Positions 3,114-34,513 of a DNA stretch of 34,513 bases are shown piece by piece. The translations under genes and the position numbers were made by a program. The stretch is from Caldisericia bacterium (GTDB lineage: Bacteria; Caldisericota; Caldisericia; B22-G15), in contig JAOAHY010000014.1 of the NCBI GenBank assembly GCA_026414995.1, positions 1-34,513 of the forward strand, in the 5' to 3' direction. The notes beneath the pieces were generated by a model. It saw only the letters and a program-made list of their open reading frames with translations, was not told the DNA's origin and did not search any database. Positions within the stretch are counted from its first letter, which is position 1. Each line of letters starts with the position of its first letter.

Positions 3114-4469
3114 TTAACCTTTAAGAAATTTAAGTCTTTCTACCTCTTCCTCGTCAACAATATATTCAGATTCAACCTTCTTCTCTTCAACAACTTTTTT
3201 TCTTATTTCTTCTTCAAAAAGCGCTTTAATTGAAAGTCTCATTTTTCTATCTTCTGGTTTTAGTTCGACTACTTTTGCCTGAACTTCTTGGCCTATTTGG
3301 AGTGCTTCTTCTGGTTTTTTAATTTTCTTTAAAGAAATTTGAGATACATGTATAAGTCCAGTTATTCCTTCTTCAAGTTCAATTACTGCTCCAAAAGGTA
3401 AAAATCTTATAACTTTTCCTTTTACAATTTTTCCAACTGGGTATTTTTCTTCAATGTTATCCCAAGGATGAGGTTTTGTTTGTCTTAAAGATAAAGAAAT
3501 TTTTTCTTCCTCAGGATCAACTTTTAAAATTTTTACTCTGATTTTCTGTTTTTTTCTTACAACTTCTCTTGCTGGTTTTCTTGGGCCCCATGTTAATTCA
3601 GATAGATGAATTAAACCTTCAACTCCTTTTCCAAGATCTACAAAAACTCCAAATTCTACAATTCCTGCTACTGTTCCAACAACTATTTCTCCTTCTTTTT
3701 CTTTTAATTGATAGAAATATTCTTTTCTTTCTCTCTCTTTTTCTTCTTCTAAAATTACTCTTCTTGAAACAATAATCTTTCTTATTTCTCTATCAAATTC
3801 GATTATTTTGACTTTTAAGGTTTTATTTAAATAATTAGATAAATCTTTCTTTTTAACTATTTCAAGTTCAATTTGAGTTCTTGGTAAAAATGCTGGAAGG
3901 CCTAAATCAATTAAAAGGCCACCTTTAACAATTCTTGTTACTGTTCCCTCAATTTCTTTTTTATTTTCATAAGCATCTTTTAATTCTTTCCAAACTTTTT
4001 CATAATCTGCTCTTCTTTTTGAAAGAACAAGATCACCAGTTGGTCCTTCACTTCTAACAACATAAACATCAATCTCTTCACCCTCTTTTACAACATCTTT
4101 TGCAGAAACTCCTTTTTCTTTTGTTAATTCTTTAAGTGGAATATATGTTTCAAATTTTCTTCCAACACTTACAAGAGCTCCATCATCTTCGACTTTTACA
4201 ACAATTGATTTAATTATTTCTCCTTTTTTGAATTTTTTTGGAAGATAATCTTCAGTTATTTTTTTAATCTCTTCAAGTTCTTCGTTTATCTCTCCCTCTT
4301 CTCCCTCTTCTTCTTTTTCCATCTCAGTAAGAATATTTCTAATTTCTTCCTCTCCTAAACTCTCTTCTCCTTCTTCCACCTCCTCCTCTTCTTTTGTTTC
4401 TTCCACATCTTCGCTTAAATTCTCTTCTAATTCATCTTTGTTTAAAAACCTTTCTTCCCTATCCTCCAT
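3114..4469 (-). CDS. rpsA: Ribosomal protein S1-like, four S1 domains
   Basis: A 451-residue protein. Residues 1-75 are extremely acidic (runs of Glu). Four S1 RNA-binding OB-folds follow at about 80-152, 170-236, 258-328 and 345-415. The last two are the most typical (VEFGVFVDLGKGVEGLIHLSEL and FLPFGAVIELEEGITGLIHVSQI). Four-domain S1 proteins are common in Gram-positive-like bacteria, where they bind mRNA and associate with the ribosome. The gene follows rplT by ten bases with AAGGAGG before ATG 4469, so it is the last gene of the thrS-infC-rpmI-rplT transcription unit. The acidic N-terminal tail is the odd feature. No clear terminator follows its stop. Confidence 0.88.
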   Translation of the reverse strand: MEDREERFLNKDELEENLSEDVEETKEEEEVEEGEESLGEEEIRNILTEMEKEEEGEEGEINEELEEIKKITEDYLPKKFKKGEIIKSIVVKVEDDGALVSVGRKFETYIPLKELTKEKGVSAKDVVKEGEEIDVYVVRSEGPTGDLVLSKRRADYEKVWKELKDAYENKKEIEGTVTRIVKGGLLIDLGLPAFLPRTQIELEIVKKKDLSNYLNKTLKVKIIEFDREIRKIIVSRRVILEEEKERERKEYFYQLKEKEGEIVVGTVAGIVEFGVFVDLGKGVEGLIHLSELTWGPRKPAREVVRKKQKIRVKILKVDPEEEKISLSLRQTKPHPWDNIEEKYPVGKIVKGKVIRFLPFGAVIELEEGITGLIHVSQISLKKIKKPEEALQIGQEVQAKVVELKPEDRKMRLSIKALFEEEIRKKVVEEKKVESEYIVDEEEVERLKFLKG

Positions 4470-31027: not shown

Positions 31028-32524
31028 CTAATTTTTAATTATTTTAAACCCTTTAAATAACAAATAATCAAAATCATCTGTGATTTCATAGGAAACAATT
31101 GTAAATCCACCACCTCTTATACTTCCTATACTTTCTTCAATTTTTACATTATCTAAAATCAAAATATCTTCTAACTCTCTTGGTGATTGTGTTATAAAAA
31201 TTAATTTTTTTACATTTTCACCAATTTTTATAATGTTTCCTTTACAAATTTCCATGGGTTCTCTTTTTTGTTGAATTATATACCCATATTCTATGTTCCA
31301 TTCACTTATATAATTACTATGTGCTGTTAAAAAATAAGTTTTTGTATAAGGAATATAATATGGAATATGTCTAAATAAAGAAACGGTTTCATCTGAAATA
31401 ATAATTATATCATTATCATTTTTGATAAATTTTTGGATTTTATTTATAAATACACTAATAATTTCAATTTGATTGTTTAAATCTTTTCTTAAATCAATAA
31501 AAATATTCATAGTATTAAGAATTAAAATTATTACCAAAGTAATAAAAATAAATTTTTTATATTTTATTTTTAAATTATAAAATTTATAAAATAAAAAAAT
31601 ATAGATTGGTGGAATAATTGTTAAATAATAACCAACTTTAGGAGCATGAATAAATAGATAAAATAAAAAAGAAGGAGTTATCCAAGTTAAAAAGAAAAGT
31701 AAAAAGTCTCTTTTTTTAAAAAAAAGAAAAATTAAAAAGAATATTGGTATTAATGATTCCCTTAAAAATAAAATAAATGTTTCAAATGTTTTAGTTAACC
31801 AATACTGATTATTAAATATTAAAGATGTTCCAATAACCCATGTAAATAAGGTTTTTGAATGAATTGAATGAATATCAAATCCACCACCTGAATAAACAGT
31901 TGGAAGATAGCAAATTAGTACAAAAAATATTATTAAAGAACAGTTAAATATAAGTTCTTTTAGTTTAATTTTAGATTTAATAAATACAAAAATAATTAAA
32001 GGAAAGAAAAAAATTAAATCATTAAACCTTATACCTGTGCTTAAACCATAAAAAATTGATAAAATTGGTAGATATTTTTTATCTTTTAATGACAAAAAAG
32101 AAAATAAACCTAATATAAGTGTTAAAAATGCTTCTGAAGAGTAAATATCTTCAACAGTTCCATAAAAGTAAAATATTGAAGTAAAGGAAAAAATAATTGT
32201 TGTTAAAAAAGAATAAAATTCATCTTGAGTTAAAATTTTCATAAAATAATAAAAAATTAAAACTCCTAATATTGAAAAAAATAAAGAGAGTATTTGTAAA
32301 CTTTTTAAATCATCTTTTATAAATAGATAAACAAATTTACTTATTAAAACAGGAATTGGATATCCAGGCGGATGAGGTTGTTCTGCATAAACATTAAAAT
32401 TTTTAATCGCTAAAGCAAAATTAATAGTATCCCACTCATGAAAAAAATCTTTAAATAGAAAAATTCTTGTTAAAATCGTTATTAATGTTAATAAAAAAAC
32501 ATTTATATTAATTTTTTTATTCAT
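31028..32524 (-). CDS. GT-C type membrane glycosyltransferase (GT39/PMT-like)
   Basis: A 498-residue polytopic protein with about ten transmembrane segments in the N-terminal 345 residues and a soluble C-terminal domain. The first extracytoplasmic loop reads HEWDTINFALAIKNF followed by EQPHPPGYPIPV: an acidic D after the first membrane helix and the HPPGYP segment are hallmarks of GT-C enzymes of the ArnT/PMT group, which take sugar from a polyprenyl-phosphate carrier. The acceptor is unknown; a protein or lipid outside the membrane is inferred. ATG 32524-32522 is preferred over the adjacent TTG, with AGAAGGAGAA upstream. It overlaps the end of the NHL gene by eight bases, so the two are co-translated. 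Confidence 0.82.
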   Translation of the reverse strand: MNKKININVFLLTLITILTRIFLFKDFFHEWDTINFALAIKNFNVYAEQPHPPGYPIPVLISKFVYLFIKDDLKSLQILSLFFSILGVLIFYYFMKILTQDEFYSFLTTIIFSFTSIFYFYGTVEDIYSSEAFLTLILGLFSFLSLKDKKYLPILSIFYGLSTGIRFNDLIFFFPLIIFVFIKSKIKLKELIFNCSLIIFFVLICYLPTVYSGGGFDIHSIHSKTLFTWVIGTSLIFNNQYWLTKTFETFILFLRESLIPIFFLIFLFFKKRDFLLFFLTWITPSFLFYLFIHAPKVGYYLTIIPPIYIFLFYKFYNLKIKYKKFIFITLVIILILNTMNIFIDLRKDLNNQIEIISVFINKIQKFIKNDNDIIIISDETVSLFRHIPYYIPYTKTYFLTAHSNYISEWNIEYGYIIQQKREPMEICKGNIIKIGENVKKLIFITQSPRELEDILILDNVKIEESIGSIRGGGFTIVSYEITDDFDYLLFKGFKIIKN

Positions 32525-34115
32525 CAATTTCTCCTTCTAAAATATACAAATTACTATTTTCTTTATCTAATAGATAAATTTTTCCATTCATTAATTCAAA
32601 TGAGTATGGTCTAATATTTTTTAATAAATCATAATAATTATATGCGAATGAAAAAATTGGAATCAAGGTTTTATTTTGAATTTTATATAAATATTTCCAC
32701 CTATTACCTAAGCAATATAAATTATTATGAAAATTTGATACTTTAGTAATTAAATCATTTATTTTTATATTTTCAATTTTTTTATCAAAAATAATTAAAT
32801 TATAAATGTATTTATCAAAAATATAAATTGAATCATTATAAACTATAAACTCATTTGGTTCATATAAAATTTTTTTTGATTTCAATAAACTAAAAAAATA
32901 ATTAAAGGGTTTATCTCCATATGATTTAATAAAATTTCCATTTAAATCAAATAATTTTATTTTATGATTATACATATCTAAAACATAAATTAAATCATTA
33001 TAAACTCTAACTTTTACTGGATAAGATAAATTAAATTCTTCATTTCCAAAATCACCAAAAGAGAAAATAAGTTCTCCCTTTTTATTAAAAATTCTTATTT
33101 TACAATTCCAAGTATCTGCCACATATATTTTTCCATTTGAATAAAAAATTCCTTTAGGATATTTTAAAATTTTATCTCCTAATCTTCTTATCAAATTCAA
33201 ATTTTTATCATAAACTAAAACATCAGAACTTTTTGAATTTAATATATAAATATTTCCATCTTCATCAATTGTTAAATCAACTGGAGAACTCAAATTTTTT
33301 ATTACTTTATACTCAAATTTTGGTGGCATTACTTTTATACCTTCATTTTTAAAATAAATTACAATAGACCTTGATAAATCAAAAAATATTTCATCACCTA
33401 TTTTATCCATTTTGATTTCAGATAAAAACTTTAGATTTTCATTAAAAATTTTTAGCCCTTCACTTGTAAGTAAATATATTTTATTGTCTATATCTATATC
33501 AAAAGAAATTAATTTAAATTTTAAAAAATTTACCTCTTTTAATATATTTCCTTTAAAGTCTAAAATAGAAATTATATTTTCATTCATTAAAAATATTTTG
33601 TTATTTTTTAATTTGATTTTTAAAAAATAGTTCTTTATTTTTAAATAACTTATATTAAAATTCTTATCAAAAATCATAATATGATCACTATAAAGAAAAT
33701 AAAAATTTTCTTTATAAACTTTGAAATCTTTTAAGTCATCACAATTTAAGTTTAATTTTTTCACAAAATAAAATTTAGAGCCATCAAATTTATATAGATC
33801 ATTATTATCAAAATAAAATAAATATAAAAATTTATCATCATTATCAATTAAAACATTTTTTGATTTTATTTTTATTTTTCTTATTGGTATATAATATCTA
33901 CTAATTTCAACAAGAAAATTTTTATTAACTGAATAAATTAGACCATTATAAGTTAAAAATGAATGATTATTATTATAAAATTCATAATCTTGAATTGATG
34001 ACTCATAGATAAAAAAATTACTTATATTAATTTTTCCTATGCAAATATTATTTAAGTGAGTATTAATTAATAATATAAAAACTATAATTAAAAATAAAAA
34101 ACATTTTTTTATCAT
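32517..34115 (-). CDS. Secreted NHL-repeat beta-propeller protein
   Basis: About 532 residues from ATG 34115-34113: a signal or anchor sequence (MIKKCFLFLIIVFILLINT), then beta-propeller repeats. The clearest NHL repeats are in the middle: LSSPVDLTIDEDGNIYILNS, LKYPKGIFYSNGKIYVADTW with NCKIRIFNKKGELIFSFG, and LSYPVKVRVYNDLIYVLDMY with NHKIKLFDLNGNFIKSYG. NHL propellers bind ligands or partners; no enzyme domain is seen. A longer reading to 34238 is rejected because it would overlap the pilin promoter and put 41 residues before a good signal peptide. An extended -10 (TGTTATAAT) ends about 14 bases before the ATG, so the mRNA is nearly leaderless. Extremely rich in Ile, Asn, Lys and Phe. Confidence 0.82.
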   Translation of the reverse strand: MIKKCFLFLIIVFILLINTHLNNICIGKINISNFFIYESSIQDYEFYNNNHSFLTYNGLIYSVNKNFLVEISRYYIPIRKIKIKSKNVLIDNDDKFLYLFYFDNNDLYKFDGSKFYFVKKLNLNCDDLKDFKVYKENFYFLYSDHIMIFDKNFNISYLKIKNYFLKIKLKNNKIFLMNENIISILDFKGNILKEVNFLKFKLISFDIDIDNKIYLLTSEGLKIFNENLKFLSEIKMDKIGDEIFFDLSRSIVIYFKNEGIKVMPPKFEYKVIKNLSSPVDLTIDEDGNIYILNSKSSDVLVYDKNLNLIRRLGDKILKYPKGIFYSNGKIYVADTWNCKIRIFNKKGELIFSFGDFGNEEFNLSYPVKVRVYNDLIYVLDMYNHKIKLFDLNGNFIKSYGDKPFNYFFSLLKSKKILYEPNEFIVYNDSIYIFDKYIYNLIIFDKKIENIKINDLITKVSNFHNNLYCLGNRWKYLYKIQNKTLIPIFSFAYNYYDLLKNIRPYSFELMNGKIYLLDKENSNLYILEGEIDE

Positions 34116-34128
34116 GTTTATAAAATAA

Positions 34129-34137
34129 ATTATAACA
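34129..34137 (-). promoter_or_regulatory. Extended -10 promoter of the NHL-protein gene
   Basis: On the minus strand TGTTATAAT spans 34137-34129. The predicted start near 34122 gives a leader of only about seven bases and no Shine-Dalgarno sequence. Confidence 0.5.
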
Positions 34138-34219
34138 TTAAAAATTTTAAATTTTATGCAAAAAAATTGGCAATTTAATATTTTTTTAAATAAAAATAAA
34201 TTTTGTTTTTTTAAACTAC

Positions 34220-34248
34220 TTGACAAAAAATATTTCAATTTATAAAAT
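34220..34248 (+). promoter_or_regulatory. Promoter of the pilin-like gene
   Basis: A perfect TTGACA (34220-34225), a 17-base spacer and TAAAAT (34243-34248). The start near 34255 gives a structured leader of about 160 bases. Confidence 0.75.
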
Positions 34249-34282
34249 TTATTTAGAAAAGAAATTTAGTTATTTTTCTATA

Positions 34283-34388
34283 GACCAAGAGGGCGATGAG
34301 GTCTTCTCTCAAAAGATGGGCGCCATGGGAGAAGGCGGAGCCTGGTGGCGCAACCGGCTTGGTCAATTTAATTTAGAAAAATGGCGCC
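34283..34388 (+). ncRNA. Structured leader RNA, candidate riboswitch
   Basis: A GC-rich island in otherwise AT-rich DNA. Closing stem P1 is perfect: GACCAAG (34283-34289) with CTTGGTC (34358-34364). Inside, GCGCCA (34320-34325) pairs with TGGCGC (34346-34351) around a small GGC/GCC hairpin (34334-34342). TTCTCTC (34304-34310) can pair with GGGAGAA (34327-34333), either as a pseudoknot or an alternative. A further ATGGCGCC (34381-34388), shortly before the ribosome binding site, complements GGCGCCAT (34319-34326) over eight bases and could displace the internal stem. A P1-closed multi-helix domain between promoter and ribosome binding site is the usual layout of a riboswitch. The 3' part (GGCGCAACCGG) resembles the cyclic di-GMP-II class, but the expected GGGUU pseudoknot partner is only partly matched. 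Confidence 0.7.
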
Positions 34389-34415
34389 AAATTTGAAAAA
34401 AGGAGGTAGCAAACT

Positions 34416-34513
34416 ATGTGGAGAAAAGGTAAGGGTTTCACCCTTATTGAGTTAATGGTTGTTATTGCAATTATCTTGATTCTTGCTCTTATCGCTATTC
34501 CTGCCTATAGGAA
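34416..34513 (+). CDS. Type IV pilin-like protein, 5' part only
   Basis: ATG 34416 follows AAGGAGG by nine bases and the frame is open to the window edge (32 codons). The protein begins MWRKGKGFTLIELMVVIAII, a short basic leader followed by the prepilin peptidase site G|FTLIE and the hydrophobic N-terminal helix (LILALIAIPAYR). Processing between Gly and Phe, N-methylation and assembly into a type IV pilus or pseudopilus are expected for this family. Whether it is a major pilin or a pseudopilin cannot be told from this part. It is preceded by its own promoter and a structured leader. Confidence 0.93.
   Translation, partial: MWRKGKGFTLIELMVVIAIILILALIAIPAYR

Follow-up and report, generated by a model that had tools for sequence, protein, structure and literature searches.

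A class II c-di-GMP riboswitch aptamer just below the Rfam cut-off is predicted upstream of a type IV pilin gene in a Caldisericia bacterium

The crystal structure 3Q3Z shows the c-di-GMP-II riboswitch (Rfam family RF01786) of C. acetobutylicum. In this structure, the contacts are made by A13, A14, U37, G39, U60, A61, C68, A69, A70, C71, C72, G73, and A74 (PMC7288161). In C. difficile, the class II aptamer Cdi-2-4 precedes the type IV pilin gene pilA1 and acts by transcription read-through, and all four class II switches there (4/4) are ON switches (PMC6200980). According to a review, the class is found predominantly in Clostridioides (PMC12564702), and tandem class II arrangements have already been reported (59 doublets and 9 triplets; PMC9481103). 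The clan also contains two variant families of the same architecture, c-di-GMP-II-GAG (RF03169) and c-di-GMP-II-GCG (RF03170).

Here, we describe a leader RNA of a Caldisericia bacterium that, judged from its sequence, is almost certainly a c-di-GMP-II aptamer. The window, i.e., the whole analyzed stretch of 34,513 nucleotides of contig JAOAHY010000014.1, contains at positions 34279 to 34368 (plus strand) a match to the complete RF01786 model (1 to 84) with a score of 52.3 bits and an E value of 6.6e-11 for the local stretch or 6.3e-9 for the whole window. The match was obtained in an Rfam scan with an E-value threshold in place of the default cut-off. The gathering score of RF01786, which is a curation threshold and no biological feature, is 53.5, and because the leader lies 1.2 bits below it, the default scan of the window misses the leader and reports a tRNA only. 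A local model (R1) scored the leader at 64.4 bits, a value that is partly circular because the window sequence was included in the model. SECIS_1, LSU_trypano_mito, and TtnuHACA18, which were also listed in the local scan, were far under their own cut-offs and were dismissed as chance matches.

The sequence-only reading had proposed a messenger-sensing leader before a pilin gene, and this is well supported. It had also recognized no clear known class and suggested a new riboswitch, to be checked with Rfam covariance models. The default Rfam cut-off indeed gives no match for the leader, but the match to RF01786 covers the full length of the model, and the pseudoknot and core are the same as those in clear family members of the same genome, which leaves a new class with next to no probability. 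All elements of a complete aptamer are present in the sequence; besides a short inner helix, these are the features shared with RF01786, namely, stems P1 and P2, the pseudoknot, and the ligand core AACCGG. The leader departs from the RF01786 consensus in its pseudoknot sequence (GCGCC/GGCGC), in a G at the position equivalent to A61, and in a single additional base at either side of the inner helix.

The closing stem P1 is formed by GACCAAG (34283 to 34289) and its exact complement CTTGGTC (34358 to 34364), the seven-pair stem that had been noticed from the sequence. Internal helices had been listed at the same time, and P2 (34301 to 34308 with 34329 to 34336) covaries in homologues; the pseudoknot between GCGCC (34320 to 34324) and GGCGC (34347 to 34351) had not been mentioned. 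In a MAFFT alignment of 37 aptamers (A1), with pairs counted including the pseudoknot, 87.4% of the paired cells were able to pair, compared to 63.3% in shuffles. The covariation score was 0.729, compared to 0.264 in shuffles, with none of the 500 shuffles reaching 0.729 and slid versions of the structure reaching at most 0.241. Compensatory changes, whose absence had been named as a refuting result, were found on both sides of 7/7 pairs in P1, 8/8 in P2, and 5/5 in the pseudoknot among the 37 homologues. The pseudoknot was paired in 99.5% of cells, its first pair varies as GC, UA, and AU, and the GCGCC/GGCGC of the window is a compensated change relative to the Rfam consensus GCAC/GUGC. P1 pairing in A1 was apparently weaker (69.9%), since the pilin-type aptamers have an extra base before the core that shifts the MAFFT alignment by one column; the P1 of the window itself is perfect. 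Thermodynamic folding by itself beats shuffles only moderately, with z values of -2.2 for positions 34255 to 34440 (4/200 shuffles equally good) and -2.1 for positions 34278 to 34370 (9/200). The compact GC-rich fold that had been described is present, and the covariance model together with homologue covariation places the RNA structure well beyond chance.

The numbering of 3Q3Z was carried to the window by the CAACCG motif, not by structure. By this motif-transferred numbering, the window retains U37, G39, C68, A69, A70, C71, C72, and G73, and the ligand-core strand AACCGG (34352 to 34357, plus strand) holds the equivalents of A69, A70, C71, C72, and G73. According to residue counts in homologues, the sole deviation at a conserved contact position is the G at 34344, the equivalent of A61, which is A in 33/37 homologues, including the G002 orthologue, and G in the window, in loci L037 and L106, and also in the G003 orthologue. 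A pattern scan of viral contigs for the frequency of G61 yielded 83 loci, and phage records yielded none.

The G at this contact, together with the base inserted at either side of the inner helix, a feature common to several pilin leaders of the phylum, could point to a derived class II aptamer with altered, GAG- or GCG-like specificity for another cyclic dinucleotide. We regard this as very unlikely. The best model of the clan for the window in cmscan was plain RF01786, so the GAG and GCG identities were rejected, and the RF03169 and RF03170 searches of the same genome, whose first look may skip the leader, listed other sites and not the window. The AA of the core is canonical, including the position that is changed in the GAG-best copies L026 and L114 (A69 to G). 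In addition, the A61 equivalent of the G002 orthologue is A, and the genome encodes diguanylate cyclases. Since the leader was assigned to RF01786 and was listed by neither variant search, c-di-GMP is the expected ligand. A search with RF03168 (c-di-GMP-I-UAU) gave noise only. A related idea is that this lineage has its own subtype of class II aptamers in its pilin leaders, with shifted affinity or ligand preference, marked by the additional base at either side of the inner helix and in some by G at the A61 contact, and with an anti-pseudoknot platform undescribed for the class; we consider it very unlikely.

The GAG variant itself is found in the same phylum. L026 (1501 to 1584; 58.3 bits) and L114 (2330 to 2414; 52.0 bits; cut-off, 40), both of which have G at the A69 equivalent, match GAG best, as does, with cut-offs applied, one copy in the genome of the window. 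L026 precedes a gene for a leucine-rich-repeat surface protein, and L114 precedes a relative of the surface protein gene of L007. The copy in the same genome (L007; also L009, 3998 to 4083, minus strand) is located at C1:26997-27082, is above the cut-off as c-di-GMP-II-GAG, and scores 45.5 bits with RF01786. L009 also includes a TPP riboswitch (4191 to 4307, plus strand; 69.9 bits) preceding genes for a predicted membrane transporter and a thiamine-pyrophosphokinase-like protein, divergent from the surface protein gene.

As had been read from the sequence, the leader of about 160 bases is preceded by a sigma-70-type promoter, TTGACA-17-TAAAAT (34220 to 34248, plus strand), with 11/12 consensus matches; promoter-like sites as a class were not above chance here (4 observed versus 4.6 expected). 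The TTGACAAA of the promoter region is also kept upstream of the G002 orthologue in the leader comparison. The anticipated ribosome binding site is the Shine-Dalgarno (SD) sequence GGAGG (34402 to 34406, plus strand), which was read from the sequence and is also present in G002 and G003. It is followed by the type IV pilin gene, which starts with ATG and is cut by the contig end (34416 to 34513, plus strand), and the N terminus MWRKGKGFTLIELMVVIAIILILALIAIPAYR of the product matches Pfam N_methyl (E value, 5.1e-11). The full orthologue in G002 is 166 amino acids long and is encoded by the first gene of an operon of pseudopilin-like genes.

On the minus strand, a mechanical ORF of 573 amino acids (32517 to 34238) opens with a TTG within the divergent promoter region. 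The orthologue in G002 is 527 amino acids long, and the true start is therefore probably near 34100. A short upstream ORF opening at ATGGCGCC was rejected, since G002 lacks one of the bases and does not preserve the frame.

Between the aptamer and the SD sequence, the element ATGGCGCC (34381 to 34388, plus strand) is a perfect 8-bp complement of GGCGCCAT (34319 to 34326), the loop arm of the pseudoknot (p about 0.005 versus shuffles). The element is identical in the G002 leader, from a second species, and the contig-cut G003 orthologue, from a third, has GCGCCC in a shifted register, which still complements the GGGCGC of its loop arm; the spacer preceding the element has diverged among the window, G002, and G003. 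When folded without ligand, the helix of ATGGCGCC with the loop arm had a probability of 0.94 in the window leader and 0.74 in that of G002. The element thus is conserved and complementary and has a high helix probability, and we therefore propose the ligand-stabilized pseudoknot and the anti-pseudoknot helix as alternatives, with the element quite probably serving as the expression platform. Binding of c-di-GMP would lock the pseudoknot, and when the ligand is absent, the loop arm would instead pair with ATGGCGCC, which lies about 30 bases before the start codon.

No intrinsic terminator was found on the plus strand of the leader. With no U-tract terminator downstream, control would probably be exerted at the initiation of translation rather than at transcription. 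In this respect, the leader, which has a complementary element before the SD sequence, differs from the read-through control of Cdi-2-4. In folding, the SD sequence was unpaired with a probability of 0.60 when the leader folded freely and 0.53 when the aptamer was forced, and hiding of the SD sequence was not seen. As it is about equally accessible in both computed states, the direction of the switch and its final step are drawn from analogy. Sequestration of the SD sequence by the 5' strand of P2 (GUCUUCU with AGGAGGU) was rejected, with base-pair probabilities of about 0.05.

The slightly subthreshold score and the G at the A61 contact could also be read as signs of a decayed relic, with the pilin being expressed constitutively. 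However, the pseudoknot is intact, and comparison with G002 and G003 shows that the aptamer, the anti-pseudoknot element, and the SD block are kept, whereas the sequence separating P1 from the element has diverged; decay is thus highly improbable.

For a functional switch, ON is the somewhat favored direction, i.e., c-di-GMP would turn the pilin operon on. This is the likelier direction for the window because of the class II precedent in C. difficile and because of the design of L007 in the same genome. In L007, the aptamer core ATGGCAAACC is predicted to form a 10-bp helix, with a probability of 0.98, with codons 4 to 7 (GGTTTGCCAT) of the gene for a DUF11-like surface protein, and the loop of this helix holds the SD sequence and AUG. 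As this anti-aptamer helix encloses both when the ligand is absent, an ON switch is implied for L007. The opposite arrangement, in which the ligand frees ATGGCGCC or another strand and pili are made at low c-di-GMP, is a lesser but real possibility. Folding leaves the direction unfixed, with SD accessibility alike in both states, and the tandem copy of the same genome precedes an M6 peptidase gene, with c-di-GMP being a repressor of the metalloprotease ZmpI in C. difficile. However, the latter repression runs via a class I riboswitch (PMC6200980), whereas the C. difficile class II switches, that of pilA1 included, and the L007 sister switch point to ON.

Three further class II aptamers were found in the genome of the window, two of which exceed the cut-off: the single copy before the DUF11-type surface protein gene and a tandem pair (C4:187-273 and C4:283-369; 61.3 and 65.2 bits) before the M6 peptidase gene. 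The same genome encodes six GGDEF domains (the GGDEF motif was present in 3/3 inspected) and six HD-GYP-type domains. At an E value of ≤1e-4, the family was found in 15/54 genomes of the phylum, which is probably Caldisericota and contains at least 40 class II aptamers. When the MurC of the window was compared with its relatives, the top identities (39 to 40%) were for the most part to proteins of Caldiserica genomes. Downstream genes were assigned with Pfam for a subset, and the remaining ones were recognized by the pilin motif in translation. They encode type IV pilins or pseudopilins at 10 loci, the window included, M6 peptidases behind tandem aptamers at three (L008, L013, and L018), HD-GYP-type phosphodiesterases at two (L109 and L111), a PAS/GAF protein at one (L024), and secreted surface proteins. 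This gene company is that expected of a c-di-GMP sensor, and these genes are of the same kind as those downstream of RF01786 aptamers in general (surface appendages and c-di-GMP turnover).

Some of these loci have additional elements. In L008 (C4, 187 to 369), the M6 peptidase gene that follows the tandem aptamers starts with TTG, its SD sequence lies within a hairpin (CCTCTAA/TTAGAGG), and a downstream CCACTGG is complementary to the aptamer core strand CCAGTGG; in L013 and L015, both of the equivalent strands have changed in concert (CAGTAGC with GCTACTG). In L111, L033, and L039 (genomes G035, G029, and G039), repeated units consist of a c-di-GMP-II aptamer and then a peptide of ~27 amino acids (MKWGKLVAFVLSISVLLITLSARFRWH), and after these units comes a further aptamer, followed by the gene for an HD-GYP-type phosphodiesterase.

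Taken as a whole, a class II c-di-GMP riboswitch leader with a putative anti-pseudoknot platform and a likely ON direction is the best explanation of the locus, with a probability of roughly 0.88. Caldiseric* and riboswitches do not occur together in any paper of the literature searched, and an earlier annotation may exist. The class of the leader and the kind of gene that it precedes are both known; as far as the tools show, what is new is the assignment, the lineage, which is outside the predominantly Clostridioides hosts of the class (PMC12564702), and the likely anti-pseudoknot platform. The RNA is thereby identified, and its absence from the default Rfam scan is explained. The association of class II aptamers with type IV pilin genes that is known in C. 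difficile is thus seen again in a distant phylum. For this little-studied lineage, the aptamers outline a predicted c-di-GMP riboswitch regulon of pilins, secreted M6 peptidases, surface proteins, and HD-GYP phosphodiesterases, which would tie its pili and other surface proteins to c-di-GMP.
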